64,000 nucleotides of DNA. Source: Sulfurovum sp. GTDB taxonomy: Bacteria; Campylobacterota; Campylobacteria; Campylobacterales; Sulfurovaceae. Below are positions 6,854 to 52,617 of this stretch, piece after piece. The notes beneath the pieces are model-generated. The model ran no database searches. It was not told the DNA's origin and saw nothing but the letters and a program-made list of their open reading frames with translations. The DNA lies in NCBI GenBank assembly GCA_020525365.1, contig JAIZOF010000001.1, positions 1,201,456 to 1,265,455 of the forward strand, read 5' to 3'. The stretch's first letter is position 1. Every line of letters starts with the position of its first letter. The translations under genes were made by a program, and so were the position numbers.

Positions 6854-6951
6854 CATACAGTTAGCCATTACGTCCATATCTCTTTTTACCAAGACTTCCT
6901 TCTCCCTCATACCCTTCTTTATTTAATTTTTTTATAAAAATAAATATTTTA

Positions 6952-6981
6952 TTGACTTTTCATTGATTTTTATGGTAGAGT
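6952..6981 (+). promoter_or_regulatory. Promoter of the first porin gene
   Basis: TTGACT (6952-6957), 18 bases, then TAGAGT (6976-6981) preceded by TG (an extended -10). The same hexamers with the same 18-base spacing occur before the second porin (8799-8828), which supports function. The porin start lies about 30 bases downstream, with AAAGGA as ribosome site. Confidence 0.7.
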
Positions 6982-7012
6982 TTAGATTGTAAATACAACA
7001 TAAAGGAAAAAC

Positions 7013-8197
7013 ATGAAATTTACAAAACTTAGCTTAGTGGCAATTTTAGCTGTCAGTGCTGCATTTGCGGCTGATAACGGTAAGGTCTCTGGGGATGCAA
7101 GACTCTATTATGGAACAACGGCTGATGACACTGCTAGTCCTAAACAAGATTTGTTTGGAAAAGTAAACTCTTTTGGTGATGTTGCGGCAAGAGTTGACTA
7201 TACTCGCTCACTCATGGGGGGTGCACTAACACTAAATACAGGACTTCAAGGTCTCTCCACACTTGGTCTTGAAAGTGAACTTGTTGGAGGTACATGGGTA
7301 GGACATGGTGCAGGTGCTGTACAAGATGCATATTGGATTGATACATTCAATGCACAAATTCAATTAAGAAAGAATGTGACTGTAACCATTGGACGTCAAG
7401 CGTTGGATACACCATTCTTCTTTACTGAAACATGGAGTATTGCAAAAAATACTTTTGATGCTGTTGTTGCAACAAACAGTGATCTTCCTAAAACTACTTT
7501 AGTTGCAGCATGGGTAGGTAGAGGAAACGGTAGTCCTGGAAAAGTAGTTCAAGTTAACAATACTGACATTAATGGTGGAATGCATACATTTGGTGGTAAG
7601 CCAGCATACGCTTTTGCTGCAGTAACAAAACTGATTCCTAATACCGTAACACAAGCATGGTACTACAAAGTTCCAGGTGCTGCAACTGCTTACTGGGCAC
7701 AAGCTGACAGTAATGTAGCGGGTGTAGACTTGGGTGTACAGTATGCAGGAACTGAACTTACAGCATCAGGAGACAAAACAAGTGGATTTGCTGTAAAACT
7801 TGGGTATGGTAAAGGTGCATGGAGTGCTTATGGTGCATACTCTGCCACAGCAGATGATGCTACTGGTATTGATATCTCCAATATTGCGACAGGACTTACT
7901 GGTGCTTCTCAGTCTAAACTCTATACTGAGTCATACTGGAACTATGGGTATGTTGGTGCAAGAAATGCAAAATCATTTGCAGTAGGTGGAGAATATAATC
8001 TTTCTTCAGTGAAGTTGGGTGCACAATATACAAATGTTACAGGCAACAATAGTAGCATGGATCTTAAAGAGGCTACAGTAACTGCAAGCACAAAACTAAG
8101 TTCAGTCAATGTTGATCTTGCTTATATCAATGCAGAAAAAGGTTCTAGAAAAGAGAATACCGTACTTGTAATGGCAAAACTCCCTTTCAATCTTTAA
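7013..8197 (+). CDS. Major outer-membrane porin, OprD/MOMP-like
   Basis: A 394-residue outer-membrane channel. Residues 1-19 (MKFTKLSLVAILAVSAAFA) form a signal peptide cut before ADNGK. The body is beta-rich with Campylobacterota porin motifs: SGDARLYYGT, ARVDYTRSLMGG, VTIGRQALDTPFFFTE and TQAWYYKVP. GRQ-LDTP is shared with the porins at 8866 and 12597. Unlike many barrels it ends in LPFNL rather than Phe. It probably gives general diffusion of small solutes. It has its own strong promoter and a G/C-rich hairpin downstream, so it appears monocistronic. Substrate selectivity cannot be read from the sequence. Confidence 0.9.
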   Translation: MKFTKLSLVAILAVSAAFAADNGKVSGDARLYYGTTADDTASPKQDLFGKVNSFGDVAARVDYTRSLMGGALTLNTGLQGLSTLGLESELVGGTWVGHGAGAVQDAYWIDTFNAQIQLRKNVTVTIGRQALDTPFFFTETWSIAKNTFDAVVATNSDLPKTTLVAAWVGRGNGSPGKVVQVNNTDINGGMHTFGGKPAYAFAAVTKLIPNTVTQAWYYKVPGAATAYWAQADSNVAGVDLGVQYAGTELTASGDKTSGFAVKLGYGKGAWSAYGAYSATADDATGIDISNIATGLTGASQSKLYTESYWNYGYVGARNAKSFAVGGEYNLSSVKLGAQYTNVTGNNSSMDLKEATVTASTKLSSVNVDLAYINAEKGSRKENTVLVMAKLPFNL

Positions 8198-8306
8198 TCT
8201 TTATGCCCCCTCTCTCCTTTGGGAGGGGTCTCCTTTCTTCTTTTACTCATTATATTAATTTTTATTAATTATTGTTTATTTTTATAAATATCAACAATAA
8301 GGTTAT
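8183..8306 (+). repeat. Direct repeat, copy 1 (124 bp)
   Basis: Exact 124-bp repeat covering the last codons of the first porin, its stop and the downstream terminator region. It recurs at 8669-8792 (offset 486). The two copies bracket the inverted feoB-derived insert, so the duplication probably arose with that insert and is likely an assembly product. Confidence 0.9.
8207..8228 (+). terminator. Hairpin downstream of the first porin
   Basis: CCCCTC (8207-8212) pairs with GAGGGG (8223-8228) ten bases after the porin stop, followed by a pyrimidine-rich stretch (TCTCCTTTCTTCTTTT). It is a plausible Rho-independent terminator; an exact second copy lies at 8693-8714 within the direct repeat. Confidence 0.55.
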
Positions 8307-8668
8307 GAGTTAAAAGAGGGAAGTCTGTGTATTTTGCATCTCCATACAAAAGGCTCATCTTTCCCTTGAAGACAAATATTTTGGCATTTTGCTATAAAAG
8401 TCCAAGAACAGCACCTGAAATATAGATAATGAATAAATATTTCTGCCTCCTTCTTGGTAAAGAATGCACCTGAAAAGAACATAAATAGGCAACTCTGCAC
8501 CACATGACATAAACCACACAAAAGTGTAATCAGTCTGTCTTTTTTCATTCTTGAGTGTACACGTGCCGCTATATAGGCAGGAACGGAACAACCAAAGCCT
8601 GTTACAAGTGGGATGAAACTCTTCCGTGTAGCCTGCAAACTTCAGGAAAGAAACCATCTAGTAAAAAG
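8307..8668 (-). other. Error-rich inverted copy of part of feoB
   Basis: Read on the minus strand, this stretch follows feoB positions about 11440-11818 base for base, including the GFGCSVPAY and CGA-LPIYVLF coding regions, but with many single-base gains and losses that destroy the frame. It is bracketed by exact 124-bp direct repeats. The scattered indels point to raw-read or chimeric sequence rather than a decaying duplicate. Apparent reading frames here (minus strand, 8303-8657) are not genes. Confidence 0.85.
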
Positions 8669-8792
8669 CCTTTCAATCTTTAATCTTTATGCCCCCTCTC
8701 TCCTTTGGGAGGGGTCTCCTTTCTTCTTTTACTCATTATATTAATTTTTATTAATTATTGTTTATTTTTATAAATATCAACAATAAGGTTAT
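8669..8792 (+). repeat. Direct repeat, copy 2 (124 bp)
   Basis: Exact second copy of 8183-8306, including the end of the porin reading frame and its hairpin. It runs straight into the promoter of the second porin. Removing one copy plus the insert would give a simple porin - terminator - porin arrangement. Confidence 0.9.
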
Positions 8793-8798
8793 ATTTTA

Positions 8799-8828
8799 TT
8801 GACTTTTTATAAAGTTTTATGTTAGAGT
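8799..8828 (+). promoter_or_regulatory. Promoter of the second porin gene
   Basis: TTGACT (8799-8804), 18-base spacer, TAGAGT (8823-8828) with TG one base upstream. It is the same architecture as the promoter at 6952-6981, so the two paralogues are probably expressed by the same housekeeping sigma factor. Confidence 0.7.
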
Positions 8829-8865
8829 TATATCGCGATTGCAATATAAAGGATAAAGGGAAAAT

Positions 8866-10098
8866 ATGAAATTGGTAAAATTTAGTTTGGCAATAATCTT
8901 TATGATCAGCTCCGTATTTGCATCTAATAATAGTAAAATATCCGGAGATGCAAGAATCTATTATGGAACAGAAGTGGAAAATACTGCTAATCCAAAAGAA
9001 GATTTATTTGGAAAACCAAACTCTATTGGTGATTTCGGAGCAAGAGTTGATTATACCCGATCGCTTATGAATGATACAGTAGTGCTAAATGCAGGTTTCC
9101 AAAGTCTCTCCCTATTTGGTGTTGATAGTGAATTTGTTGGGTATTCGTGGGTAAAGCATAACAATAAGAAAGGTAGAGGTGATGCGTACTGGATCGATAC
9201 ACTCAATATGCAAATTAAATTAAACAATACTCTCGCTATGACTGTCGGACGTCAAGCACTGGATACTCCATTTTTCTTTACTGAAACATGGAATATTGCA
9301 AAAAATACTTTTGATGCTGCCATTATCACCAATAATGATATTCCTAAAACCACTTTAACTGCAATATGGATAGGGAGAGGGAACGGTATATCAGGAACAG
9401 GTGTAGTCGATGCAAATGGTACTGATTTGAACGGTGGAATGGCTACATTTAGTAGGGTATTAGGTAGCAAACCTAAACCAACATATGCTTTTGCTGTAGT
9501 GACAAAGCTAATTCCCAATACTATAACACAAGCATGGTACTACAAGGCTCCAAGCATTGCAACTGCTTACTGGATGCAAACTGATAGTAACATAATGGGT
9601 ATTGTGCTAGGTGCACAGTATACAGAAATTGAACTTGTAGAAAATAGTAATAAAACAAGTGGATTTGCTGTAAAACTTGGGTATGGTAAAGGTGCATGGA
9701 ATGCTTATGGTGCATACTCTTCCACAACGGGTAATACCGATGGTATTGATATCTCTAATATCGCAACAGGACATACATACGGTTCTCAATCTAAACTATA
9801 TACTGAATCGTATTGGAACTATGGGTATGTTGGTGCAAGAAATGCAAAATCATTTGCAGTAGGTGCACAATATAATCTCTCTTCAGTAAAGCTGAATGCA
9901 CACTATACGCATGTTGCAGGAAATACTAACAATATGGACGTAAAAGAAGCTGCATTGACTGCAACTACAAAGCTAGATTTAGTAGATATTGAGGTTGCTT
10001 ATATTAATGCAGAAATTGGTCTCAATTTTGACGAAAGGACTAATTCTAAGAGAAAAAATACTCTGTTTGTAAAAACAAAAATTCCTTTTGAACTTTAA
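8866..10098 (+). CDS. Outer-membrane porin, paralogue of the upstream porin
   Basis: A 410-residue porin highly similar along its length to the one at 7013: signal peptide MKLVKFSLAIIFMISSVFA, then SGDARIYYGTE, ARVDYTRSLMND, VGRQALDTPFFFTE and ITQAWYYKAP. Differences gather in short stretches (KHNNKKGRGDAYW, a longer SRVLGSKPKPTY segment and the C-terminal NFDERTNSKRK insertion), which would be extracellular loops. Tandem duplication followed by loop divergence is the simplest history. It has its own conserved promoter and a downstream hairpin. The two proteins may be condition-specific alternatives, but nothing in the sequence shows which conditions. Confidence 0.88.
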   Translation: MKLVKFSLAIIFMISSVFASNNSKISGDARIYYGTEVENTANPKEDLFGKPNSIGDFGARVDYTRSLMNDTVVLNAGFQSLSLFGVDSEFVGYSWVKHNNKKGRGDAYWIDTLNMQIKLNNTLAMTVGRQALDTPFFFTETWNIAKNTFDAAIITNNDIPKTTLTAIWIGRGNGISGTGVVDANGTDLNGGMATFSRVLGSKPKPTYAFAVVTKLIPNTITQAWYYKAPSIATAYWMQTDSNIMGIVLGAQYTEIELVENSNKTSGFAVKLGYGKGAWNAYGAYSSTTGNTDGIDISNIATGHTYGSQSKLYTESYWNYGYVGARNAKSFAVGAQYNLSSVKLNAHYTHVAGNTNNMDVKEAALTATTKLDLVDIEVAYINAEIGLNFDERTNSKRKNTLFVKTKIPFEL

Positions 10099-10284: not shown

Positions 10285-12360
10285 ATGGAAAAGATTGTTG
10301 TAGCTTTGGCAGGGCAGCCCAATGTAGGAAAATCTTCCCTCATCAATACCATCTCCAATGCCAAACTCAAAGTGGGTAATTTCTCAGGCGTGACAGTTGA
10401 CAAAACAGAAATTATTTTTCAACTTTGCAATAACATAAAATGCAAGAACTATGAGGTACACATCATCGATCTTCCTGGTGCTTACTCTCTTACAGAGTAT
10501 ACCATTGAAGAGAAAGTGACAAAAAGTTTTCTTCAGAGTGATGAGTATGACCTTGTAGTCAACGTAGTTGATGCAACCAACCTTCAGAGAAATCTCCTCT
10601 TTACTACACAACTACTCGAAACTGGACAAAGAGTCATCGTTGTACTCAATATGATCGACGAAGCAAGAAAAGAAGGCATAGAGATAGATGAGAAACAACT
10701 CTCTGCCATCTTAGGAACACCGGTTATTAAAGCCTCTGCAGTAACCAAAGAGGGTATTGAAGAGCTAAAACATGCTATTGTTGAAGTCTACGAAAATCCT
10801 GAAGTTACCGCTAAAGTAATCTACTCCGATCCCATTGAGGAGGAGATAGATCACATTATTACCTTTTTAAAAGAAAAAAAGTACAAAAGCAACCTCCCCT
10901 ATCGCCATCTCGCTGTTAGACTCCTACAGGAGGACAAAGAGATCTACAAGAAGATGCATGACGAACCCATTTGGATAGAACTGCTTCCAGTCCTGCGTGA
11001 AGCACTTGAGCACATTTACCTACACATGGATACCAAAAATCTCAAAGAGATCTTTAGCGATGAGCACTTTTCCTTTGCCAAAGGGGCAAAGATGGAGGTA
11101 ATGTCACTTAAGCGTATGCGTGCAAAGAATTTGACACAGAAAATTGATAACCTGCTTATTAACAAAATTTTAGGTATACCTCTTTTTCTCTTTTTTATGT
11201 GGGGTCTCTTTCAGCTAACTTTTGAACTTGGAAGTGTCCCTATGGACTATATTGATGCTGCATTCAGTTGGCTTGGCGATCAGGCAAACAATCTACTTGA
11301 CAAAGGAGAACTCGGTTCTCTTGTTGCAGACGGTATCATTGCTGGGGTCGGTGCCGTTGTGATGTTCCTTCCCAATATTATGATTCTTTTCTTGGGAATA
11401 GCCCTACTTGAAACCACCGGATATATGAGTCGTGTTGCCTTTTTACTAGATGGTTTCTTTCACAAGTTTGGGCTACACGGAAAGAGTTTCATCCCACTTG
11501 TAACAGGCTTTGGTTGTTCTGTTCCTGCCTATATGGCGGCACGTACACTCAAGAATGAAAAAGACAGACTGATTACACTTTTTATTATTGGTTTTATGTC
11601 ATGTGGTGCAAGGTTACCTATTTATGTTCTTTTTTCAGGTGCATTCTTTACCCAGAAAGAGGCAGGAAATATTTTATTCATTATCTATATTTCAGGTGCT
11701 GTTCTTGGACTTTTTATGGCAAAAATACTTAAAATATTTGTCTTCAAGGGAGAAGATGAGCCTTTTGTTATGGAGATGCCAAAATACAGACTTCCCTCTT
11801 TTAAACTCATTTGGCATACCGTTTATGGTCAGTCAAAATCCTACTTAAAAAAAGCAGGTACCTTTATTTTGGCTGCCTCTATTCTTATTTGGTTTGCAAG
11901 CAATTACCCAAAGGTCAATGTGCCAGAAAACCTTGATACCAATCAAGTTAAACTCTATGAACTTGAGAGGAGTTATCTTGGAGAGATTGGGCATGCATCT
12001 GAACCATTCTTCTCTCCTCTTGGCATGGATTGGCGCATGGCAGTTGCATTAGAGACTGGCTTAGCAGCCAAGGAAGTAGTTGTATCTACACTTGGTGTGC
12101 TGTATGCACTAGGTGATGAAGTAGATGAAAGAAATGAAGGGTTAACCACTCAAATCAAAGCCAATATCCCATTTGCATCTGCTATTGCTTTTATTGTTTT
12201 TATTATGATCTACCTTCCATGTCTGGCAGCATCTATGGTATTCACGCAAGAGGCTGGAGGCTGGAAATATTTAGCCTACCTGTTTATAATGACCACAGCA
12301 ACTGCATGGATACTAAGTTTTCTTGCATACAAAATGACATCAATAATCACAGGGGGCTAA
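10285..12360 (+). CDS. feoB: Ferrous iron transport protein B
   Basis: Inner-membrane Fe(II) importer with a cytosolic G domain. The GTPase motifs are G1 GQPNVGKSS (about residues 10-18), G3 DLPGAYSL, G4 NMID and a G5-like SA. Membrane segments start near residue 290 and hold the two Gate domains, including GFGCSVPAYMAARTL and CGARLPIYVLF, with conserved Cys residues. At 691 residues it is a normal length. The ribosome site AAAAGGA precedes ATG 10285. The gene is followed after one base by feoA, so the pair is coupled. An error-rich inverted copy of its middle part lies at 8307-8668. Confidence 0.97.
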   Translation: MEKIVVALAGQPNVGKSSLINTISNAKLKVGNFSGVTVDKTEIIFQLCNNIKCKNYEVHIIDLPGAYSLTEYTIEEKVTKSFLQSDEYDLVVNVVDATNLQRNLLFTTQLLETGQRVIVVLNMIDEARKEGIEIDEKQLSAILGTPVIKASAVTKEGIEELKHAIVEVYENPEVTAKVIYSDPIEEEIDHIITFLKEKKYKSNLPYRHLAVRLLQEDKEIYKKMHDEPIWIELLPVLREALEHIYLHMDTKNLKEIFSDEHFSFAKGAKMEVMSLKRMRAKNLTQKIDNLLINKILGIPLFLFFMWGLFQLTFELGSVPMDYIDAAFSWLGDQANNLLDKGELGSLVADGIIAGVGAVVMFLPNIMILFLGIALLETTGYMSRVAFLLDGFFHKFGLHGKSFIPLVTGFGCSVPAYMAARTLKNEKDRLITLFIIGFMSCGARLPIYVLFSGAFFTQKEAGNILFIIYISGAVLGLFMAKILKIFVFKGEDEPFVMEMPKYRLPSFKLIWHTVYGQSKSYLKKAGTFILAASILIWFASNYPKVNVPENLDTNQVKLYELERSYLGEIGHASEPFFSPLGMDWRMAVALETGLAAKEVVVSTLGVLYALGDEVDERNEGLTTQIKANIPFASAIAFIVFIMIYLPCLAASMVFTQEAGGWKYLAYLFIMTTATAWILSFLAYKMTSIITGG

Positions 12361-16863: not shown

Positions 16864-17460
16864 TTACAACCCTTCAGCGTGTTTTGCAAGATATGTTGCA
16901 ACACCTTCTGCGTCAGGCTTCATTGCCTCATCACCTTTTTGCCAACCTGCAGGACACACTTCACCATGTTCGTTTGTAAACTGCATTGCATCAATCATCC
17001 TAAGCATCTCATCTACATTTCTTCCAAGTGGAAGGTCATTAATGACTGCGTGTCTAATTGTACCATCAGTATCAATCAAAAAAGAACCTCTTAGGGCAAC
17101 AGACTCATCAAGAAGTACATCATAATCTCTAGAAATCTGCTTTGTCAAGTCAGCCACAAGAGGGAAATTGATGCAGCCTATACCCCCCTTCTCTACAGGG
17201 GTTTCTCTCCATGCAAAGTGTGAAAACTGGCTGTCTATAGAGACACCAATAACATTGATTCCTCTATCTTGAAACTCATTGTATCTACGAGAGAACGCAA
17301 TAATCTCAGATGGACATACAAATGTAAAGTCAAGTGGATAGAAAAATACAACTGTTCCCTTCTTGCCGAAGTTTTTGTAAAGGTTGAAATCTTCTACAAT
17401 CTGACCGTCTCCAAGTACGGTGGTTGCTGTAAAATCTGGTGCTTTTTTGGTTACTAGCAT
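16864..17460 (-). CDS. 2-Cys peroxiredoxin (AhpC/TSA family)
   Basis: Thiol peroxidase of 198 residues that reduces hydrogen peroxide and organic peroxides. The peroxidatic cysteine is in DFTFVCPSEI (about residue 50) and the resolving cysteine in HGEVCPAGW (about residue 170), making it a typical dimeric 2-Cys Prx. The C-terminus (EGVATYLAKHAEGL) matches Campylobacterota peroxiredoxins. It is convergent with the YggS-type gene and shares its terminator. No alkyl hydroperoxide reductase partner (AhpF) gene is nearby. Confidence 0.94.
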   Translation of the reverse strand: MLVTKKAPDFTATTVLGDGQIVEDFNLYKNFGKKGTVVFFYPLDFTFVCPSEIIAFSRRYNEFQDRGINVIGVSIDSQFSHFAWRETPVEKGGIGCINFPLVADLTKQISRDYDVLLDESVALRGSFLIDTDGTIRHAVINDLPLGRNVDEMLRMIDAMQFTNEHGEVCPAGWQKGDEAMKPDAEGVATYLAKHAEGL

Positions 17461-17539
17461 GCTATTTCCTGGCTCTATTGAGTGCTTTCACTTTGTATTT
17501 ATTAAGATAAACCTCTTCGTATTTGATGCTTCGCCAGAA

Positions 17540-18238
17540 TCTTAGTATGTCATGTTGTTGATTTGTTTGCAATGAGGGTAGTGCATTTCCCGTGTGGTTT
17601 AAATAAAGCCAGTTTTAAGTAAAATTATAGAACTATATACAGCAATCAAAGGAGAAAATAAAGTGGGATTTTTTCTTTCATGGAGAGAGAGTAGGAGGTA
17701 AGTGATGTGCTTGTACCCAACGAAAGAGAAGCGCACGTGCAGGAGCGGGAATACTTTTCATGGGGATACTCAGTCTCAGAATGCAGTAGCATTTTCGGGG
17801 CATGTGGGATTGTTACTTCAAAGTATTTATCCTTACTTTTACGTTAGACTTCATACGAACCATACAACCTCAAGCAAGCCCCCAGCCTATTACTTTGTAG
17901 GTTTTGCGCAAAATCAACGTCCAGAGTATGTGGGTGCGAATAACAAAAAGCGTTTTGCATGGAGCATAGCTTTGTTGGTTTCTGGTTTGGCGTTTTTACC
18001 TTTGGTCATTCACTTTCAGCATAACCCCATCAAAGTAGTGGTGTGTATACCGTTTGGCACTACTTTTTGAAGCAGCATTTTCCGTCTGCGTAGGGTGTGT
18101 AAAATATATGGATTCTTTAAAAAAGACCCTAAAATACACTGTCCTCGAGGTATCTGTGAAGTACGCACCAAAGATACCATACACCTCTCTTTGATTTACT
18201 CACAAAAGATCACTAAGGTCATGTTTGTTCTGGTAGCT
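17540..18238 (+). other. Error-rich copy of the DUF4395 gene and its upstream region
   Basis: From about 17555 the sequence follows 20465-21120 (and so the reverse complement of 19604-20259) closely, but with frequent inserted, lost or changed bases in both coding and non-coding parts. The frame of the DUF4395 protein is broken several times. It meets clean ubiD sequence near 18238 at the shared bases GGTAGCTC. It is best read as uncorrected or chimeric read sequence. No gene is called here. Confidence 0.8.
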
Positions 18239-19386
18239 CCTACACCCCAAAAAGCGTGCATAAACTGCTGGGCATGACCAGGATAGAGTGTCTTCATCTT
18301 GGCCAAAATAAGGTTATGAAAAACTCCATTCTCTGGCATATAGTAATCAGTAAGGTCAGGTGCCATTGGCTTAAGCATTGGCAAAAAGACTCGCTCAGTC
18401 GCCCAGCCCATATATTTGTCCTCAAGTGGTGGTTTTCCCACCACCGTTGCGGCAAAGACTGGATTTTCTTTCATCGTAATGGTCTCCACCTCCATAACCG
18501 GGAATGACTCTTTAAGTGTATAGTAACCAGTATGATCTCCAAAGGGGCCTTCAACTTCCATCTTTTCAGGGTCAACCAATCCTTCAATAACAATATCTAC
18601 ATCACGGGGAATATAGATGTCATTGGTAATGGATTTTACAAGCTGGGCATTTTGGTTGCGCACAAAACCATAGAGCAACATTTCAAACATCCCATGTGGC
18701 ATAGGGGCTTGCCCACACCAAATATAGAGTGGGTCTCCTCCAATGGCAACAGTCACAGGCATTTTCTTGCCTGCACGTTGATACTGGTCAAAAAAGTGGG
18801 AGGCATCTTTGTGTATCTGCCAGTGCATCCCTAAACGGTGCTTATCGTACTGTTGCAATCGGTACATTCCAAGGTTTTGCATCTTGCCATCAAGGCTTTG
18901 GGTATAAACCTGCCCCATTGTAATAAATGGACCACCATCCTCTTCCCATGTTTTAAGTATGGGTAATTTGTCTAAGTCTACTGCCTCTTTGGGCACAATG
19001 ACCTCTTGGCACTCGCCCTTAAAATTCAGACGCTTTGGAAATACATTTTTAAGATTAAAAAGCTTGGGTATCATTGCCAGTTTTTCCTTGAAACCTTTAG
19101 GCGGCTTCAGTTTAAGCAGTTCATCTATTCCCTCTGCTACAAGGTCAGGGTGTTTACCAAAAATTTTTTCGGTAAGTGCCTTATTTGCAAAGATATTCAT
19201 TAGGACAGGCATATCATACGCTATCTTCTTGGCTTTGTTAATCGGATTAGTAAAGAGTATAGGACGCGAATCCTCTTTTTTAACTTCTATGTAGGCAACA
19301 TGCGGAATCTCAAGTTCTACATCAAGTGGTTCATCTATTATTTTTAAATTGCCATTCTCTTTAAGCCACTGTATCACATCTTGCAT
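18196..19386 (-). CDS. ubiD: UbiD-family decarboxylase, C-terminus lost
   Basis: UbiD enzymes use prenylated FMN to decarboxylate aromatic or unsaturated acids, such as the ubiquinone/menaquinone precursor in quinone synthesis. Family segments include WEEDGGPFITMGQVYTQ, RLQQYDKHRLGMHWQIHKD, AIGGDPLYIW and EGPFGDHTGYYT. The protein starts at ATG 19386, but reliable sequence ends near MHAFWGVGA at about 18240; the last 14 residues come from a junction with unrelated low-quality sequence. Full family members run to roughly 600 residues, so about 200 C-terminal residues are missing. A 5' duplicate lies at 21338-21569 inside the inverted repeat. The loss is probably an assembly error and not a true pseudogene. 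Confidence 0.85.
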   Translation of the reverse strand: MQDVIQWLKENGNLKIIDEPLDVELEIPHVAYIEVKKEDSRPILFTNPINKAKKIAYDMPVLMNIFANKALTEKIFGKHPDLVAEGIDELLKLKPPKGFKEKLAMIPKLFNLKNVFPKRLNFKGECQEVIVPKEAVDLDKLPILKTWEEDGGPFITMGQVYTQSLDGKMQNLGMYRLQQYDKHRLGMHWQIHKDASHFFDQYQRAGKKMPVTVAIGGDPLYIWCGQAPMPHGMFEMLLYGFVRNQNAQLVKSITNDIYIPRDVDIVIEGLVDPEKMEVEGPFGDHTGYYTLKESFPVMEVETITMKENPVFAATVVGKPPLEDKYMGWATERVFLPMLKPMAPDLTDYYMPENGVFHNLILAKMKTLYPGHAQQFMHAFWGVGATRTNMTLVIFCE

Positions 19387-20360
19387 TGAACATCCCTCTT
19401 TTAAGTTATAACCATAATAATAAAAACCTATTATAGCAATTCATTCATACTAAAATCCCTAAAAACGATCAAACTCTTCTTGCATTTTTATCTCTTCTAA
19501 AGCTTCTCTTTCTGCATCACTCATCATCATTGTTTCTACTTTCTTGGCCAAAAGTGTTTTACTCTCTACTTTTGTAAAGTAAAGATATAGTCCAAAAACC
19601 AGAGCTACCGAAACAAGCATGACAATGATCTTTTGTGGTAAATCAAAAGTCTGTATGGTATCTTTGGTGCGTACTTCACAGATACCTCCAGGACAGTGTG
19701 TTACAGGGTCTTTTTGAAAAAGTCCATATATTTTACACCCTACGCAGACGGAAAATGCTGCTTCAAAAAAAAGTAGTGCCAAACAGAGTATGCACACCAC
19801 TACTTTGATGGGGTTATGCTGAAAGTGAATGACCAAAAGGTAAAACATAGGCAAAGCCAACAAAAGCCCTATGCTCCATGCAAAACGCTTCTGTGTCGCA
19901 CCCACATACTCTGGACGTTGATTTTGCACAAAAACCCTACCTAGTAATAGGCTGGGGGCATAGCGAGGTTGTATGGTTCGTATGAAGAAGTCTAACGTAA
20001 AAAATGAGATAAATACTTTAGTAACAATCACATGCCCCAATGCTACTGCATTCACAAGACTGAGTATCCCCATCAGAAAAAGTATTCCCGCTCCTGCACG
20101 TGCTTCTCTTTCGTTGAGTACAAGCACATCATACCCCTCTACTCTCTCTCCATACTGAAAAAATCCCACTTTATTTTCTCCTTTGCTGTATATAGTTCTG
20201 TAATTTTACTCAAACTGACTTATTTAAACCACATAGGAAATGTGCTACCCTCATTGCAAACAAGTCAACTTCACACTCTTGCAAAGGCTTTTTCTCATCT
20301 GCACTTTAAGTACCCACCGGAAATAAAAACAGCTCATCTCAAGGCTGTTACAAAATGCAT
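19155..20360. repeat. Perfect inverted repeat 1, left arm (1,206 bp)
   Basis: Exact reverse complement of 20364-21569, separated by only three bases (CAA, 20361-20363). It carries the first 77 codons of ubiD, the whole DUF4395 gene and its 5' region. The left arm seems the authentic one, because it continues into more ubiD sequence. Confidence 0.95.
19459..20169 (-). CDS. DUF4395 membrane protein
   Basis: A 236-residue inner-membrane protein of unknown function. The DUF4395 features are visible in order: TLDFFIRTIQPRYAPSLLLG, then the KRFAWSIGL helix, and EAAFSVCVGCKIYGLF with paired cysteines. Four membrane segments are likely. It has a Campylobacterota-style extension after the domain: HCPGGICEVRTKD, a further membrane helix (IIVMLVSVALVFGLYLYF) and an acidic amphipathic tail (AEREALEEIKMQEEFDRF). 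It lies 72 bases upstream of ubiD on the same strand. The paired Cys residues could bind metal or be redox-active; this is not established. Confidence 0.8.
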   Translation of the reverse strand: MGFFQYGERVEGYDVLVLNEREARAGAGILFLMGILSLVNAVALGHVIVTKVFISFFTLDFFIRTIQPRYAPSLLLGRVFVQNQRPEYVGATQKRFAWSIGLLLALPMFYLLVIHFQHNPIKVVVCILCLALLFFEAAFSVCVGCKIYGLFQKDPVTHCPGGICEVRTKDTIQTFDLPQKIIVMLVSVALVFGLYLYFTKVESKTLLAKKVETMMMSDAEREALEEIKMQEEFDRF

Positions 20361-20363
20361 CAA

Positions 20364-21569
20364 ATGCATTTTGTAACAGCCTTGAGATGAGCTGTTTTTA
20401 TTTCCGGTGGGTACTTAAAGTGCAGATGAGAAAAAGCCTTTGCAAGAGTGTGAAGTTGACTTGTTTGCAATGAGGGTAGCACATTTCCTATGTGGTTTAA
20501 ATAAGTCAGTTTGAGTAAAATTACAGAACTATATACAGCAAAGGAGAAAATAAAGTGGGATTTTTTCAGTATGGAGAGAGAGTAGAGGGGTATGATGTGC
20601 TTGTACTCAACGAAAGAGAAGCACGTGCAGGAGCGGGAATACTTTTTCTGATGGGGATACTCAGTCTTGTGAATGCAGTAGCATTGGGGCATGTGATTGT
20701 TACTAAAGTATTTATCTCATTTTTTACGTTAGACTTCTTCATACGAACCATACAACCTCGCTATGCCCCCAGCCTATTACTAGGTAGGGTTTTTGTGCAA
20801 AATCAACGTCCAGAGTATGTGGGTGCGACACAGAAGCGTTTTGCATGGAGCATAGGGCTTTTGTTGGCTTTGCCTATGTTTTACCTTTTGGTCATTCACT
20901 TTCAGCATAACCCCATCAAAGTAGTGGTGTGCATACTCTGTTTGGCACTACTTTTTTTTGAAGCAGCATTTTCCGTCTGCGTAGGGTGTAAAATATATGG
21001 ACTTTTTCAAAAAGACCCTGTAACACACTGTCCTGGAGGTATCTGTGAAGTACGCACCAAAGATACCATACAGACTTTTGATTTACCACAAAAGATCATT
21101 GTCATGCTTGTTTCGGTAGCTCTGGTTTTTGGACTATATCTTTACTTTACAAAAGTAGAGAGTAAAACACTTTTGGCCAAGAAAGTAGAAACAATGATGA
21201 TGAGTGATGCAGAAAGAGAAGCTTTAGAAGAGATAAAAATGCAAGAAGAGTTTGATCGTTTTTAGGGATTTTAGTATGAATGAATTGCTATAATAGGTTT
21301 TTATTATTATGGTTATAACTTAAAAGAGGGATGTTCAATGCAAGATGTGATACAGTGGCTTAAAGAGAATGGCAATTTAAAAATAATAGATGAACCACTT
21401 GATGTAGAACTTGAGATTCCGCATGTTGCCTACATAGAAGTTAAAAAAGAGGATTCGCGTCCTATACTCTTTACTAATCCGATTAACAAAGCCAAGAAGA
21501 TAGCGTATGATATGCCTGTCCTAATGAATATCTTTGCAAATAAGGCACTTACCGAAAAAATTTTTGGTA
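20364..21569. repeat. Perfect inverted repeat 1, right arm (1,206 bp)
   Basis: Exact reverse complement of 19155-20360. It ends abruptly inside the ubiD copy at 21569, after which the sequence becomes error-rich. It is probably a fold-back duplicate and not a real second locus. Confidence 0.95.
20555..21265 (+). CDS. DUF4395 membrane protein, inverted duplicate
   Basis: Residue-for-residue identical to the protein at 19459-20169 and located in the right arm of the perfect inverted repeat. It should not be counted as a paralogue unless read data confirm the palindrome. Confidence 0.6.
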   Translation: MGFFQYGERVEGYDVLVLNEREARAGAGILFLMGILSLVNAVALGHVIVTKVFISFFTLDFFIRTIQPRYAPSLLLGRVFVQNQRPEYVGATQKRFAWSIGLLLALPMFYLLVIHFQHNPIKVVVCILCLALLFFEAAFSVCVGCKIYGLFQKDPVTHCPGGICEVRTKDTIQTFDLPQKIIVMLVSVALVFGLYLYFTKVESKTLLAKKVETMMMSDAEREALEEIKMQEEFDRF

Positions 21570-21598
21570 GAGGTGCAGCGTACAAAATATTAGGGTGA
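21338..21598 (+). pseudogene. 5' fragment of ubiD, inverted duplicate
   Basis: The first 77 codons are identical to ubiD at 19386-19155. Identity stops at 21569 and the frame then ends after nine unrelated residues. It lies at the outer end of the right repeat arm and is very likely an assembly duplicate. Confidence 0.75.
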
Positions 21599-22790
21599 GC
21601 ATCATCCGCTGTCTTCATTTGACAATCGAGTTGTGCCGCAATCTTTTCAACTGTGTGAAGCTAACGTGCAGAATCAGTTCCCATCAGTGTTCAAATCTGT
21701 GCAGAATTGCCTGCCACAAACACTGTATCACATCTTTGGGCTGTCTGGCACAGAGACCATAACCATAATGTAGAAACCTGACCTGCTGAGACTATAAATA
21801 CTAAAATCTAAAAACGTCCGAGCTCTTCTTGCATTTTATCTCTTCTAGCTTCTTCTTCATCACTCATCATCGTGTTTCTACTTTCTTGACAAAATGTTTT
21901 ACTCTCTGCTGTAAAGTAAAGATGATCAAAAACCAAACTACCAGCTGGCATGTTTAATGATGCGTATTAAATCAAAGATGTATGTTGTATCTTGATGCGT
22001 ATCTGAACACTCAGGAGAGTGGTGAAAGTCCATGCTATTACGCGAACAATGCCTTTCAAAATGGTGCTGAAACATGCCTGCTTTGGGGGTTATGCTGAGA
22101 ATGGTTTGCAGGCAAACAGCTGAAAAGCCACAGTAACCTCCATGCTGCTTTGGCCTACTCTGGACGTGCGTATGCCTAACTGTGAGGGCATAACTGGTGC
22201 CTCGGTTCGTATGAAGAAGTCTGGCAAAAACGGACCACTCTTGTATTTTCGATCCGCATGCTGTCTTTACTGGGCTGGCTATCCCCATCGTATTCGCTCC
22301 TACCGTGCTAAGTTGATCACAACATCTCTACCTCCTCTCTCATGAAAATCCGCCATTACTATCTTTACTAACACGGTTGGTACTCAAACTTGTTTCATTA
22401 AACTACGCCAATGTGCACTCATTACACTGAGTCGGCTTCACGCTGCTACGAAAGGCACTCTCTCTGCACTTTCCACCGGCAGTAAATCCAGGCTGTTACA
22501 AAATCATCGTAGTAATCGTGCAGGCTGTTAGAGGCGACCTTCAGTTCAACCGTGAAACTCAAATATCTGTCTGTATTATCTGAAACAACTTTGTCTTTAC
22601 ATCATTAAGAGGGGTACGGATCCGTCCCATTCGGGCGTCTCCCTCTATCTATGTGCTGTTAACTGGGCTCGTTGATGCGATGTTACTCTGCGCCCGCTGA
22701 GCATGCGTAGTCATCCAGAGTGACGGTCGCTAACGGCATTAGGCACGCTCATCCAAGCTCGGCTTTGGGTATAATGTCCCGAATAATTTC
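21570..22790 (-). other. Error-rich third copy of the ubiD/DUF4395 region, then the SIR2-like 3' part
   Basis: From about 21590 to 22500 the bases follow 19200-20350 in the same orientation with many indels and substitutions; for example the ubiD 5' end lies near 21720 and the DUF4395 stop region near 21810. From about 22500 to 22790 it appears to continue, equally error-rich, into the 3' part of the minus-strand SIR2-like gene. Its order suggests the true genome runs ubiD - DUF4395 - SIR2-like. No intact gene can be called in it. Confidence 0.75.
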
Positions 22791-23145
22791 CCCTCTGCAA
22801 CTGGGTATTATCTTTTGCCTGTCTGAAAAGTGCTTCAAATAATTGGAAATAAAGAGTGACTACCTTGTCACGCAACTGATGATATTTTTCTTTATCAGAC
22901 AAATCTTCTTTTTCGAGTCTCTCTTCTGCCAATTTTCTTATTTTATCATCTAAATGTTTTTTTATAAACTTATCGAATTTATATGTCTCTTTTTTTAATT
23001 TTAAAAACCACTCTACTGCAAGTTCCCCTGCTAATGGGATACCAGAACTTTTCGAACACCCCGCACCCAAGAAAAAAACATAGTTCGTATCTTTGTCTCT
23101 TTTATGAGAAGCATATATCTCATCTATAAATTCATTTAGCGTCAT
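22711..23145 (-). CDS. SIR2-like domain protein, 3' part unreadable
   Basis: The start is ATG 23145, with an AAGGAATATAGAGA upstream region. Residues 22-43 (YVFFLGAGCSKSSGIPLAGEL region) match the NAD-binding GAGxS/CxxSGIP motif of SIR2-like proteins. A charged helical region follows (about residues 55-95: KKHLDDKIRKLAEERLEKED). Sequence is reliable only to about residue 118 (near 22790); the remaining residues come from error-rich sequence and the true C-terminus is unknown. SIR2-like NADase domains of this type often occur in anti-phage proteins, but no partner gene is visible, so a defence role is only a possibility. Confidence 0.6.
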   Translation of the reverse strand: MTLNEFIDEIYASHKRDKDTNYVFFLGAGCSKSSGIPLAGELAVEWFLKLKKETYKFDKFIKKHLDDKIRKLAEERLEKEDLSDKEKYHQLRDKVVTLYFQLFEALFRQAKDNTQLQRGNYSGHYTQSRAWMSVPNAVSDRHSG

Positions 23146-23291: not shown

Positions 23292-23975
23292 CTATATCAA
23301 TCCAAACTGCTCTTTATAAATTTCCTGAATATCTTGCTTATTTTTATAATCAATCAAATCACCTACTTCCACGGTAACTTCTCTTCGTACTGAATTATCG
23401 CGGATTGCTTCTTTTAAAATCTCTGCTGCATTTCCTTTAATATAGACTGGTAGTATTGGTAACTTATTTTTTAGTGCGATGATGCGTGAGCCATCTTTAA
23501 AGGTACCAATTTGTTTATCTGTTTTATTTCGTGTTCCCTCTGGGAAAATAAAAATTGAGTCCCCTCCCTTAACACCCATTTTGATATCAGAAAAAAAACC
23601 TGTCATCTGCTTCTGGCTTCTGTCAAGAAGGATGGACCCCCCATTGCGTACAAACATACCAAAAAAGAATGAATTATAAAGCTCTTTTTTAGAAACCCAA
23701 AAACCAAATATTTTTGTATTTTTTAACATAATCTCAATAATAGGAGGATCAATGATTGTCCGATGATTGCTTATTAAAAGAAATTGACCCTCTTGGGGTA
23801 GCTTATGGATGTTTTCAACTCTCACTTCAATATTAAGTGTTTTCATCTGCTTTTGCGAATACTCAAGTCGTAAACGTTTCTTTTCCATAGAATCACGGGT
23901 ACGCTTCAATTTTAAACCATATGAGTTGGTCAGATAGAGTGCTATCAAAAACTGTTTAATTTCCCTAAGCGTCAT
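23292..23975 (-). CDS. 1-acyl-sn-glycerol-3-phosphate acyltransferase-like protein (PlsC family)
   Basis: Membrane-associated acyltransferase of 227 residues. The catalytic HX4D motif is NHRTIID, and the substrate-binding motif FPEGTRNK follows about 70 residues later, with the usual LPILPVYIKG segment. It likely transfers the second acyl chain in phosphatidic acid synthesis, although related PlsC-type enzymes act on other acceptors. The N-terminal 50 residues are basic and amphipathic rather than strongly hydrophobic. It is divergent from radA. Confidence 0.87.
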   Translation of the reverse strand: MTLREIKQFLIALYLTNSYGLKLKRTRDSMEKKRLRLEYSQKQMKTLNIEVRVENIHKLPQEGQFLLISNHRTIIDPPIIEIMLKNTKIFGFWVSKKELYNSFFFGMFVRNGGSILLDRSQKQMTGFFSDIKMGVKGGDSIFIFPEGTRNKTDKQIGTFKDGSRIIALKNKLPILPVYIKGNAAEILKEAIRDNSVRREVTVEVGDLIDYKNKQDIQEIYKEQFGLI

Positions 23976-48453: not shown

Positions 48454-48655
48454 ACAACGTTTCCAACGACACGCCATCTAACCCTGCATTAAGTACAGAG
48501 ATAATCTCTTTAGAGAGTTTGCGTACATCATTTCCCTGTACACCAGAGCCAATCAGCACTGCCATCAACTCCTCATTTTTGAGTGCCTCAACCCCTTTAG
48601 AAATCAGTTTTTCACGAGGCTTATCCTTCTTATAGAGTTCAGCTATCTTTTTCAT
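48392..48655 (-). CDS. radC: RadC-family protein, 5' part
   Basis: The reliable part is residues 1-67 (MKKIAELYKKDKPREKLISK to GVSLETL), the helix-hairpin-helix N-terminal region of RadC/MPN+ proteins, from ATG 48655 to 48454. Beyond 48454 the sequence becomes error-rich, but remnants of the C-terminal metalloprotease-like domain can be read down to about 48050, so the true gene is probably full length (about 225 residues). The cellular role of RadC is unsettled. Confidence 0.75.
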   Translation of the reverse strand: MKKIAELYKKDKPREKLISKGVEALKNEELMAVLIGSGVQGNDVRKLSKEIISVLNAGLDGVSLETLYDIIRGKFYCQSITDTFSTT

Positions 48656-48801
48656 GCAAAAACCCTATTTTCATTGTCACAAACATACTATACCCCTTAT
48701 CATAAGGGTATTTTAGACTAAGATGTGATTAGAAGAAAAAAATATGTCATATTGTCATATTTATATAGTAGCGTGTCGGTCTTTTAAATGATTTGAGAGG
48801 A

Positions 48802-49119
48802 TTATTTGGACTTAAGCATCCACACCAACAGCAGTATGCCTACGGTAATGTTGAGCCAGCTTACACCATCTTTGAACATTGATTCAAGTGCTGTATACAT
48901 CCACCGTATCTGCGAGAGTGGTTCGATGATGCTGTGTAGGTGTGCCCACTCTATCAGTTCAGACTGCCAAATATAGGTAACAAGTTCAGGCACAAAGAAA
49001 AAGAGTACAACACCCAGTACACCCCAAATCGTCCGTTCTGGCTTTATGCGCCCTACGGCTTGCTTAAGTTTTGGATCATTGGCAATATGCTCTTGTATTT
49101 GGGTAATCTTTTTACGCAT
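48802..49119 (-). CDS. Small two-helix membrane protein
   Basis: A 105-residue protein of unknown function. A basic N-terminal region (about residues 1-28) is followed by two membrane helices (WGVLGVVLFFFVPELVTYIW and WLNITVGILLLVWMLKS). Its ATG overlaps the TGA of the DJ-1 gene by one base, indicating coupling. No family is recognised. Confidence 0.65.
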   Translation of the reverse strand: MRKKITQIQEHIANDPKLKQAVGRIKPERTIWGVLGVVLFFFVPELVTYIWQSELIEWAHLHSIIEPLSQIRWMYTALESMFKDGVSWLNITVGILLLVWMLKSK

Positions 49120-49676
49120 CAGCAGTAACCAAGCAACATTCCCTCTTTAACCTGCTGTGCTGTCTCTTCACCTACAAGGCGTTTAACAATGACCAATCCA
49201 AAACAAACGGATGTTCCAGGACCTTGCGATGTAATAATGTTGTCATCTTCAACAACTTTTTGATCTGAGATATAGCCAGGGTGGTCTATCTCTTCAATTG
49301 CACCAGGATAGGCAGTATATCGTTCACCCAATACCCCTGCCTTTTTTAGTGCATAGGGTGCAGCACACATAGCACCGACAATCTTCTTCTCCTTAAACTC
49401 CTTGAGTAACTCCTGCACCCTAGGACTCTCTGCTAGAGCATAGGTACCACCCCACCCTCCAGGTAGTACTATCATATCAAAATCTTCAACGATGACATTG
49501 TTTATGGGGATATCTGCCTTAATGGTAATGCCATTGGCACCTGTAACCAATTCGCCATGCAACTCATCGATATATGCCAATTGTACATCAATGCCACCAC
49601 GACGCATCACATCACACAGTGCTACTGCTTCAAGCTCCTCAAACCCTTCTGCCAATGGTAATAATACACTTGCCAC
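49119..49676 (-). CDS. DJ-1/PfpI-family protein
   Basis: A 185-residue protein with the DJ-1 fold: LLPLAEGFEELEAVALCDVMRR at the N-terminus with the conserved Glu, VLPGGWGGTYALAES, and the nucleophile elbow VGAMCAAPYALKKAG with the catalytic Cys. It is closest to the DJ-1/YajL group rather than the PfpI proteases. Proposed roles are stress defence and handling of glyoxal-type damage. The start is GTG 49676 with AAGGAG upstream. Confidence 0.88.
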   Translation of the reverse strand: MASVLLPLAEGFEELEAVALCDVMRRGGIDVQLAYIDELHGELVTGANGITIKADIPINNVIVEDFDMIVLPGGWGGTYALAESPRVQELLKEFKEKKIVGAMCAAPYALKKAGVLGERYTAYPGAIEEIDHPGYISDQKVVEDDNIITSQGPGTSVCFGLVIVKRLVGEETAQQVKEGMLLGYC

Positions 49677-49805
49677 AAAAGACTCCTTGGTAGTATTTGC
49701 TATATCATTATAAATTTTTTAGGTAAATCAATAATCATAAAAAGATATGTTATTGCTTTTTAGCTACAAATCATTACTTTAATACACATCGTTTACAGAA
49801 AAGAT

Positions 49806-50231
49806 TTACCACTTTCGAAGTCTCACGTGACACTTCATACACTGCCCAATAATTTTACTATGCTGCTGTAGTGCCTGAACTGCATCGCCTGTTTCGAAAC
49901 GCTCTTCAAGTATTTCTGCTTTTTTAACAATTTTCTTTTGTATTTTACTTGTCATCTTTAAGTTATTGTTGAGCCATTTCTCATAAATATCTTTACTGTT
50001 TATCTCTTCATCAGTTGCATGTATTTTTACAATTGTATCTTTCAATACCCTTGTCCCTGCCTTAATGATATCTATATTATTATAGAGCAAACCCGATTGG
50101 ATATCTTGCATTGCTTGTGCCATCTTTTGCATATCTGCAATTCTATCTGCTTGCGTATATCCACTCGCCATGGCAAAACGACTTAAGAGTACAAATATTG
50201 ATACTACTGTTAACAATAGTGATAATTTCAT
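49806..50231 (-). CDS. c-type cytochrome, cytochrome c'-like
   Basis: A 141-residue exported protein. Residues 1-22 are a signal peptide (MKLSLLLTVVSIFVLLSRFAMA). The mature part is an all-helical bundle with the single haem motif CMKCH near the C-terminus (IIGQCMKCHVRLRKW), the layout of cytochrome c'/c-556 proteins. It lies in the periplasm and may carry electrons or bind small gases. A ribosome site AAGGAG precedes the ATG. Confidence 0.83.
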   Translation of the reverse strand: MKLSLLLTVVSIFVLLSRFAMASGYTQADRIADMQKMAQAMQDIQSGLLYNNIDIIKAGTRVLKDTIVKIHATDEEINSKDIYEKWLNNNLKMTSKIQKKIVKKAEILEERFETGDAVQALQQHSKIIGQCMKCHVRLRKW

Positions 50232-50862
50232 TATATCTCCTTATTAATAATATAAAAGTATCATAACATGATAACGCATTATCTTTAAATAACTCAATTC
50301 GATTTATATTCATCACATATTTTGATGATAAATTTTTATAAAATTTAAGTTTTATTTTAAAGTTTTGGTGATAATATGGTGTTGTATCAAAAATTAATAT
50401 AAAGGATATAGTGATGACAAAAATACTTATTTCGTGTGCAGTAGCAGCCGCACTTGCAACAACTACACAAGCAGATTTTAGCTTTGGAGACATGTTTAAA
50501 GACATGAAAGAGGCGGCAATCAGCATGAGTAAGGATGCCAAAGATAGCGTTGAATCCATGAAAGATGGCGCTGTTGAAACCAGTAAAAGTGCAGAGCGAA
50601 CAGTTACTAATGTTAGCCATGACGCCAGAGATACATCCGTGAAAGTATCTGATGACTTAACATTAGTAACTGTTCGCTCTGCACTTTTACTGGTTTCAAC
50701 AGCGCCATCTTTCATGGATTCAACGCTATCTTTGGCATCCTTACTCATGCTGATTGCCGCCTCTTTCATGTCTTTAAACATGTCTCCAAAGCTAAAATCT
50801 GCTTGTGTAGTTGTTGCAAGTGCGGCTGCTACTGCACACGAAATAAGTATTTTTGTCATCAC
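50143..50862 (-). pseudogene. Mirror image of the periplasmic-protein gene
   Basis: The first 67 codons from 50862 are identical to those of the plus-strand gene at 50411, because both cross the centre of the inverted repeat. The reading then passes through the spacer and continues antisense. It is a product of the palindrome and not an independent gene. Confidence 0.6.
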
Positions 50863-51130
50863 TATATCCTTTATATTAATTTTTGATACAACACCATATT
50901 ATCACCAAAACTTTAAAATAAAACTTAAATTTTATAAAAATTTATCATCAAAATATGTGATGAATATAAATCGAATTGAGTTATTTAAAGATAATGCGTT
51001 ATCATGTTATGATACTTTTATATTATTAATAAGGAGATATAATGAAATTATCACTATTGTTAACAGTAGTATCAATATTTGTACTCTTAAGTCGTTTTGC
51101 CATGGCGAGTGGATATACGCAAGCAGATAG
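50411..51130 (+). CDS. Small periplasmic protein, 3' end replaced by fold-back sequence
   Basis: The start is probably ATG 50414 after AAAGGATATAGTG. The first 20 residues (MTKILISCAVAAALATTTQA) are a signal peptide. The mature part is Lys/Asp/Ser-rich and helical with loose repeats (MKEAAISMSKDAKDSVESMKDGAVETSKSAERTVTNV). Genuine sequence continues through the spacer to SHDARDTSVKVSDD at 50657; everything after is the reverse complement of the gene itself, so the true C-terminus is unknown. It is divergent from the cytochrome gene in the left arm. No family is recognised. Confidence 0.55.
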   Translation: MMTKILISCAVAAALATTTQADFSFGDMFKDMKEAAISMSKDAKDSVESMKDGAVETSKSAERTVTNVSHDARDTSVKVSDDLTLVTVRSALLLVSTAPSFMDSTLSLASLLMLIAASFMSLNMSPKLKSACVVVASAAATAHEISIFVITISFILIFDTTPYYHQNFKIKLKFYKNLSSKYVMNINRIELFKDNALSCYDTFILLIRRYNEIITIVNSSINICTLKSFCHGEWIYASR

Positions 51131-51467
51131 AATTGCAGATATGCAAAAGATGGCACAAGCAATGCAAGATATCCAATCGGGTTTGCTCTATAATAATATA
51201 GATATCATTAAGGCAGGGACAAGGGTATTGAAAGATACAATTGTAAAAATACATGCAACTGATGAAGAGATAAACAGTAAAGATATTTATGAGAAATGGC
51301 TCAACAATAACTTAAAGATGACAAGTAAAATACAAAAGAAAATTGTTAAAAAAGCAGAAATACTTGAAGAGCGTTTCGAAACAGGCGATGCAGTTCAGGC
51401 ACTACAGCAGCATAGTAAAATTATTGGGCAGTGTATGAAGTGTCACGTGAGACTTCGAAAGTGGTAA
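51042..51467 (+). CDS. c-type cytochrome, inverted duplicate
   Basis: Residue-for-residue identical to the cytochrome c'-like protein at 49806-50231, lying in the right repeat arm. It should not be counted as a second gene without read support. Confidence 0.6.
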   Translation: MKLSLLLTVVSIFVLLSRFAMASGYTQADRIADMQKMAQAMQDIQSGLLYNNIDIIKAGTRVLKDTIVKIHATDEEINSKDIYEKWLNNNLKMTSKIQKKIVKKAEILEERFETGDAVQALQQHSKIIGQCMKCHVRLRKW

Positions 51468-51596
51468 ATCTTTTCTGTAAACGATGTGTATTAAAGTAAT
51501 GATTTGTAGCTAAAAAGCAATAACATATCTTTTTATGATTATTGATTTACCTAAAAAATTTATAATGATATAGCAAATACTACCAAGGAGTCTTTT

Positions 51597-52154
51597 GTGG
51601 CAAGTGTATTATTACCATTGGCAGAAGGGTTTGAGGAGCTTGAAGCAGTAGCACTGTGTGATGTGATGCGTCGTGGTGGCATTGATGTACAATTGGCATA
51701 TATCGATGAGTTGCATGGCGAATTGGTTACAGGTGCCAATGGCATTACCATTAAGGCAGATATCCCCATAAACAATGTCATCGTTGAAGATTTTGATATG
51801 ATAGTACTACCTGGAGGGTGGGGTGGTACCTATGCTCTAGCAGAGAGTCCTAGGGTGCAGGAGTTACTCAAGGAGTTTAAGGAGAAGAAGATTGTCGGTG
51901 CTATGTGTGCTGCACCCTATGCACTAAAAAAGGCAGGGGTATTGGGTGAACGATATACTGCCTATCCTGGTGCAATTGAAGAGATAGACCACCCTGGCTA
52001 TATCTCAGATCAAAAAGTTGTTGAAGATGACAACATTATTACATCGCAAGGTCCTGGAACATCCGTTTGTTTTGGATTGGTCATTGTTAAACGCCTTGTA
52101 GGTGAAGAGACAGCACAGCAGGTTAAAGAGGGAATGTTGCTTGGTTACTGCTGA
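51597..52154 (+). CDS. DJ-1/PfpI-family protein, inverted duplicate
   Basis: Identical to the protein at 49119-49676, including the GTG start with AAGGAG upstream. It lies in the right repeat arm. Confidence 0.6.
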   Translation: MASVLLPLAEGFEELEAVALCDVMRRGGIDVQLAYIDELHGELVTGANGITIKADIPINNVIVEDFDMIVLPGGWGGTYALAESPRVQELLKEFKEKKIVGAMCAAPYALKKAGVLGERYTAYPGAIEEIDHPGYISDQKVVEDDNIITSQGPGTSVCFGLVIVKRLVGEETAQQVKEGMLLGYC

Positions 52155-52471
52155 TGCGTAAAAAGATTACCCAAATACAAGAGCATATTGCCAATGATCC
52201 AAAACTTAAGCAAGCCGTAGGGCGCATAAAGCCAGAACGGACGATTTGGGGTGTACTGGGTGTTGTACTCTTTTTCTTTGTGCCTGAACTTGTTACCTAT
52301 ATTTGGCAGTCTGAACTGATAGAGTGGGCACACCTACACAGCATCATCGAACCACTCTCGCAGATACGGTGGATGTATACAGCACTTGAATCAATGTTCA
52401 AAGATGGTGTAAGCTGGCTCAACATTACCGTAGGCATACTGCTGTTGGTGTGGATGCTTAAGTCCAAATAA
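52154..52471 (+). CDS. Small two-helix membrane protein, inverted duplicate
   Basis: Identical to the protein at 48802-49119 and coupled in the same way to the DJ-1 gene by a one-base overlap. It lies in the right repeat arm. Confidence 0.55.
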   Translation: MRKKITQIQEHIANDPKLKQAVGRIKPERTIWGVLGVVLFFFVPELVTYIWQSELIEWAHLHSIIEPLSQIRWMYTALESMFKDGVSWLNITVGILLLVWMLKSK

Positions 52472-52617
52472 TCCTCTCAAATCATTTAAAAGACCGACAC
52501 GCTACTATATAAATATGACAATATGACATATTTTTTTCTTCTAATCACATCTTAGTCTAAAATACCCTTATGATAAGGGGTATAGTATGTTTGTGACAAT
52601 GAAAATAGGGTTTTTGC

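Follow-up and report, generated by a model that had tools for sequence, protein, structure and literature searches.

A SIR2_2-type gene cut short beside a palindrome in a Sulfurovum contig, probably the 5′ part of a stand-alone SIR2-TPR NADase

Introduction

Among the known systems closest to the gene considered here are DSR2, which according to published abstracts depletes NAD+, and the Sir2-Argonaute systems, which the same kind of source describes as antiviral. For Avs5, excerpts of one study report that the GAGXS and TTNXD motifs, the Asn and the residue at the HG/NG position contact NAD or are needed for immunity (PMC12931631). A tree legend in a second study places TPR among the partner domains of SIR2_2 proteins, the SIR2_2 or SIRim class (PMC12700824), and the excerpts consulted here on SIR2 with TPR in defence name no tested SIR2-TPR protein that is free of a STAND part.

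We know of no member of the SIR2_2-TPR group that has been tested. Here, we analyze a SIR2-like open reading frame in a stretch of 64,000 nucleotides (the window) from Sulfurovum sp., which sits in a two-contig, 1.47-Mb assembly rated 99.86% complete. We consider it probable that this ORF is the 5′ part of a stand-alone SIR2_2-TPR NADase that combines sensing and acting in one protein, that its role is anti-phage, and that it was cut by an artefact.

Results

The ORF begins as a SIR2-like gene and ends in noise

Two features define the locus:
22825..23145, minus strand: the 5′ part of a SIR2_2-type gene, judged real from same-order matches, alignment and an extent test; 107 codons, perhaps up to 118, with a GAGCS motif
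22504..22824, no strand: noisy junction, made up of the last ORF codons (22711-22824) and other sequence; defined by base composition, reading frames and an own-genome search

The ORF at 22711-23145 on the minus strand encodes 144 aa. The first-pass annotation had placed a nucleotide-binding signature of SIR2-like proteins near its start, and the motif is where it was claimed to be, with YVFFLGAGCSKSSGIP at residues 22-37 and the nucleotide-binding GAGCS at residues 27-31. Weak matches to the PADLOC SIR2/pAgo models (best 2e-6), together with clear matches in same-order genomes, place the similarity beyond chance; the best of the latter reaches 1.7e-21 with 59% identity over residues 2-65, and the top three share 59-60% identity over ≈64 residues. 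Read from its sequence, the ORF is the start of a genuine SIR2-like gene. A Pfam search at E values up to 1 yielded no SIR2 match, a sub-threshold hit to DUF722 being all that it returned, and the SIR2_2 model (PF13289) does not match the ORF. That model begins at about residue 128 of intact relatives, past the break, and the missing Pfam match is thus explained by a model that covers the region beyond the break. Likewise, the PADLOC matches are weak because the diagnostic part is absent.

To delimit the gene, all 144 residues were compared with 13 relatives. Strong similarity is confined to residues 1-71, and phmmer detects a second block at residues 93-110 or 93-118 in two of the 13. Residues 108-144 score no better than shuffled sequence in most of these relatives, with 8 to 180 of 200 shuffles reaching the observed score; the fewest were counted for L090 (8 of 200) and L091 (10 of 200). 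A separate alignment with five relatives took residues 1-107 alone as input. Since in most comparisons the tail does not rise above shuffles, we place the end of the genuine coding sequence near residue 107-118 (base 22825-22792, minus strand) and regard the remaining 26-37 codons of the ORF as junction noise. The earlier suspicion that the 3′ part is hidden in low-quality sequence is thereby borne out, the tail residues being mostly indistinguishable from shuffles. The catalytic Asn and His of this copy are unreadable because the assembly breaks before these positions.

Relatives are patchily distributed and mostly pair SIR2_2 with TPR

The gene is matched in none of 36 other same-genus genomes, in agreement with the accessory nature first ascribed to it, in one of 23 other same-order genomes and in seven of a wider same-order draw of 397 other genomes. 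With the fragment alone as query, named genomes, viral contigs and plasmids gave no match, nor did viral contigs give a relative when the alignment served as query. A scan of named genomes recovered 11 relatives, seven of them labelled Epsilonproteobacteria, Arcobacter, Campylobacteraceae, Campylobacterota, Nitratifractor or Sulfurovum. Of the other four, two come from Heimdallarchaeota MAGs, one bears no label beyond Proteobacteria, and one comes from a Coatesbacteria MAG, where ORF calling found no member. The SIR2-TPR proteins encoded in the two Heimdallarchaeota MAGs are 819 and 818 aa long (L095:9980-12436 and L096:7988-10441) and have ≈35% identity to the bacterial query. In a MAG labelled Sulfurovum (isolate Faavne), the SIR2-TPR gene is split into several ORFs (L094:10180-11332). 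Excerpts of a study of a vent field with a name like Faavne describe nanopore reads with Illumina polishing (PMC10734525); that L094 derives from this study is a guess on our part.

We aligned 13 members, leaving out L094, for its broken frame, and L097; among those aligned, L072 is a short protein of 334 aa, and L091 and L092 extend up to where their sequence stops. The assignment to a SIR2-like family made from the fragment is upheld by these relatives, all 13 of which contain SIR2_2 (PF13289) by Pfam, as well as GAG[C/A]S and T[T/V]NFD, the latter with the catalytic Asn; their His lies in HG in 10 and in HR in three. Their N-terminal SIR2_2 domain spans ≈260-300 residues and in most cases leads into TPR repeats whose number varies, and those with a complete ORF are 528-819 residues long. 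The partner domain that the first-pass annotation had left to be found is TPR in most relatives, TPR_11 being present in 11 of the 13; any TPR part of the window copy is missing from this assembly. On the relatives, NCBIfam returns mainly generic TPR models, and for L087 one domain model (TPR_END_plus) is past its cut-off.

The PADLOC models for SIR2-APAZ, pAgo and PDC-S65 match all 13 relatives, and the ThsA models match five to six of them weakly, in L087 over the SIR2 part. Matches by phmmer reach 9.8e-13 for SPARSA Sir2 chains and 7.1e-5 for DSR2. The predicted model of L087 (528 aa; mean pLDDT 85.2, pTM 0.60) has SPARSA Sir2 and then DSR2 as its nearest solved structures, at TM-scores by query length of 0.33-0.44, which are low for the whole model. 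These matches to SIR2-APAZ/pAgo models and SPARSA chains, the best found by PADLOC and by structure, would suit a short Argonaute system of SPARSA type in which the gene supplies the Sir2 subunit. Most close relatives have TPR at their C-terminus, however, and this genome lacks a match to Piwi (PF02171) at E values up to 0.01, in a search whose control matched in one of 14 control genomes. SPARSA membership is accordingly rejected, as an extremely improbable reading.

Mobile elements carry related genes as well. For the SIR2 part of L087, relatives occur on 19 plasmid records and three phage records, each at less than 60% identity. The SIR2_2 gene adjoins an integrase gene in PQ189367, whose notes mention a PM2-like capsid, and lies between repressor and integrase, together with two small ORFs, in PQ189330, which carries phage 186/P2-type notes. 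Both are Vibrio cyclitrophicus prophages, one PM2-like and one of the phage 186/P2 type, and their SIR2_2 genes, beside the integrase, belong to the wider family (L098:1354-3228 and L099:7947-9785). In these two prophage proteins, SIR2_2 is present and no TPR was detected; three plasmid proteins (L100-L102) have both SIR2_2 and TPR.

A defence function draws support from the patchy distribution and from the carriage of relatives by plasmids and prophages. An intact SIR2-TPR gene could instead serve NAD signalling, a stress response or toxin-like plasmid maintenance, and the neighbours of the relatives offer this view some room. We scanned 102 of their 117 neighbour proteins with PADLOC at 1e-5, using models without cut-offs here, and 32 families matched; among the 25 of these that were listed, none matches more than two of the 102 proteins, and no recurrent defence cluster emerges. 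Strong single matches were to PDC-S05 (3.2e-62), DndA (1.5e-16), DolB (9.7e-15) and DrmC (1e-13). Against a role outside defence speak the same patchy distribution and carriage by prophages and plasmids, and the closest solved relatives are antiphage NADases, so that we regard such a role as unlikely.

The break coincides with a palindrome and its noisy copies

The sequence beyond the junction contains the following features:
19155..21569, no strand: near-perfect 2415-bp palindrome (mirror comparison and BLAST, 99.876%)
19459-20169, minus strand, and 20555-21265, plus strand: DUF4395 gene, twice within the palindrome (Pfam)
21570..22503, plus strand: deletion-rich third copy of the arm 19155-20362 (alignment)
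17459..18290, plus strand: further noisy arm copy, of 20364-21206 (score 1085; BLAST 85% over 17557-18239)

The two 1206-bp arms of the palindrome are identical around a 3-bp centre (20361-20363), and the 5′ part of a UbiD gene is also present twice within it (UbiD_N by Pfam). Aligned with the arm 19155-20362, the third copy at 21570-22503 agrees at 775 positions, differs at 101, lacks 332 and has 58 insertions, scores 801 as compared with 302-317 for three shuffles, and is shortened to 934 bases from the 1208 of the arm. The noisy copy at 17459-18290 begins at the palindrome centre. At its edge, the UbiD ORF 18196-19386 (minus strand) is truncated in its C-terminal domain, with 65 of 127 positions of the UbiD_C model covered by Pfam.

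Further repeats lie elsewhere in the window. A second near-perfect palindrome occupies 48454-52819, with 2183-bp arms, four mismatches and 10 gap positions, and contains ORFs of 141, 185 and 105 aa, each twice and mirrored. We looked for a noisy arm copy beside it and found none, and the artefact pattern is thus not uniform. In inverted orientation, the segment 8305-8668 copies 11439-11810 at 89% identity; an exact direct repeat of 124 bp borders it on either side (8183-8306 and 8669-8792), so that 8183-8792 resembles another fold-back insertion. The adjoining ORFs 7013-8197 and 8866-10098, within 6944-10015, share ≈75% DNA identity and are either paralogues or another assembly effect.

Published excerpts describe processes that leave such traces: folded multi-copy molecules with inverted copies in series arise after whole-genome amplification (PMC6218980), nanopore reads of inverted duplicates have a second half that is shorter, miscalled and missing bases (PMC7229812), and fold-backs in general are treated in a third source (PMC12870357). 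Two marks of a fold-back artefact are seen here, an extended, near-perfect inverted copy whose arms are hardly separated (1206-bp arms, 3-bp centre) and adjoining error-rich, shortened copies, at 21570-22503 and 17459-18290. The serial inverted copies likewise resemble the fold-back or amplification palindromes of long reads, except that here they are seen in the contig and not in reads. From the near-perfect palindrome, the noisy third and fourth copies, the second palindrome and the literature on folded reads, we strongly infer that the SIR2 gene was cut by a fold-back assembly artefact and not by biology.

The palindrome could in principle be a real inverted duplication of the genome, given that its contig belongs to a near-complete assembly (99.86%). 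Bacteria are not known to keep 1206-bp arms around 3 bp stably, which counts against such a duplication, as do the error-rich copies on both sides of 19155-21569 and the second large palindrome in the same window (48454-52819). We therefore rejected a real chromosomal palindrome at this position and hold it to be very improbable.

The missing 3′ part is not recovered from the assembly

Between the third copy and the SIR2 piece, G+C content is 0.484 (22504-22825), compared with 0.312 in the SIR2 piece, and the longest frame in 22504-22825 has 39 codons. When the junction noise was searched in its own genome, it matched itself and otherwise segments of 16-24 bases. A PF13289 search of the whole 1.47-Mb assembly detected no SIR2_2 core; with an intact relative as query for the missing half, the assembly returned nothing beyond the fragment and, weakly, two TPR regions (L085 and L086), of which the stronger match, L085, is a 214-aa TPR protein.

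A continuation of the SIR2 gene within 22504-22815 was sought by frameshift-tolerant alignment to four relatives and gave no signal beyond shuffles, 5, 20, 18 and 17 of 25 shuffles reaching the observed score, in a test of limited power. As a positive control, the noisy DUF4395 copy was aligned with its own protein, and none of 15 shuffles reached its score; simulated cases built on relatives scored 39-115, a range overlapping with that of shuffles, hence the limited power. The junction noise also bears a weak likeness to 18620-18991 (score 163, reached by none of 300 shuffles), yet this is the best of ≈50 chunk-and-strand comparisons, and we do not claim it as a copy.

Gene order of the genus is disrupted at the SIR2 site

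One further gene borders the start of the SIR2 ORF:
23292..23975, minus strand: acyltransferase (PlsC-like) gene beside the SIR2 start (Pfam Acyltransferase, 1.9e-24)

Nine same-genus loci were chosen among the 19 loci of other genomes with the best acyltransferase matches. In all nine, the acyltransferase gene adjoins a RadA-like gene and is flanked on its other side by a 288-aa gene, which in L056 is an SRP54-type GTPase; a SIR2 match is found in none of them. In the Sulfurovum genome itself, the 288-aa gene and the RNase Y gene of L056 have their counterparts near 1.09 Mb, ≈133 kb away. Either a genuine rearrangement or a misjoin could account for the join. No SIR2 gene is found in the own-genome stretch beside the SRP54-type gene, whose neighbour there we take, from reading its sequence, to be subtilase-like. 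Between these two genes lies ≈1 kb free of ORFs of at least 60 aa (L082:11780-12760, near 1090000), on the far side of the break in the gene order of the genus. When the DUF4395 loci of six relatives were compared with the window, G423 alone had a gene order in common with it.

The disrupted gene order, with the 288-aa neighbour ≈133 kb off, would fit a SIR2 gene that is broken in the organism itself and survives as a remnant where the genome was rearranged. So would an assembly in which the SIR2_2 core is found nowhere and an intact relative retrieves just the fragment and the two weak TPR-region matches. The break coincides with the palindrome-plus-noisy-copy structure, however, and the surviving SIR2 codons form an open, well conserved frame; a genuine remnant seems to us quite improbable. 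We favor a gene cut in the assembly, of which the organism would have an intact copy.

Discussion

The intact relatives suggest what the complete protein might do. Its SIR2 domain is predicted to have NADase activity, its TPR part may act as the sensor, and a phage would be the trigger. In such a mechanism, the TPR part would bind an infection cue, binding would change the oligomer, the SIR2 domain would then hydrolyze NAD+, and the loss of NAD+ would stop the growth of the infected cell. Extending this from the single gene to its group, we tentatively suggest that the Campylobacterota SIR2_2-TPR proteins, with relatives in the two Heimdallarchaeota MAGs and on plasmids, could form an anti-phage class that needs a single gene, the phage being sensed by a TPR array whose length differs between relatives and NAD being depleted by SIR2 as the effector. 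A patchy SIR2_2-TPR group that is intact in relatives is a likely single-gene NADase defence, and the size of the protein is handy for testing. Because the contig carries fold-back structures, its broken or doubled genes (UbiD, DUF4395 and the 48-53 kb block) should not be taken as biology.

Among known systems, the SPARSA Sir2 subunit has the solved SIR2 domain that comes closest to the relatives in both sequence and structure; the relatives differ from it in carrying TPR rather than an Argonaute partner. DSR2 is similar in that one gene encodes both the SIR2 effector and a helical C-terminal part, and the sequence and structure matches to it are significant, but its chains comprise ≈1000 residues as opposed to the 528-819, of TPR type, in the relatives described here. 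Avs5, a SIR2-STAND protein that in some cases has TPR, shares the SIR2 effector and, in the excerpted account, uses TPR or other repeats as its sensing part (PMC12931631). The relatives differ from Avs5 in that STAND NTPase is absent among the 25 of 29 Pfam families listed for them. With the SIR2_2 or antiphage sirtuin class, the window ORF shares the GAGXS motif, as GAGCS, as do all 13 relatives; the relatives share with the TPR-bearing members both domain and partner, and the window copy ends before the SIR2_2 core.
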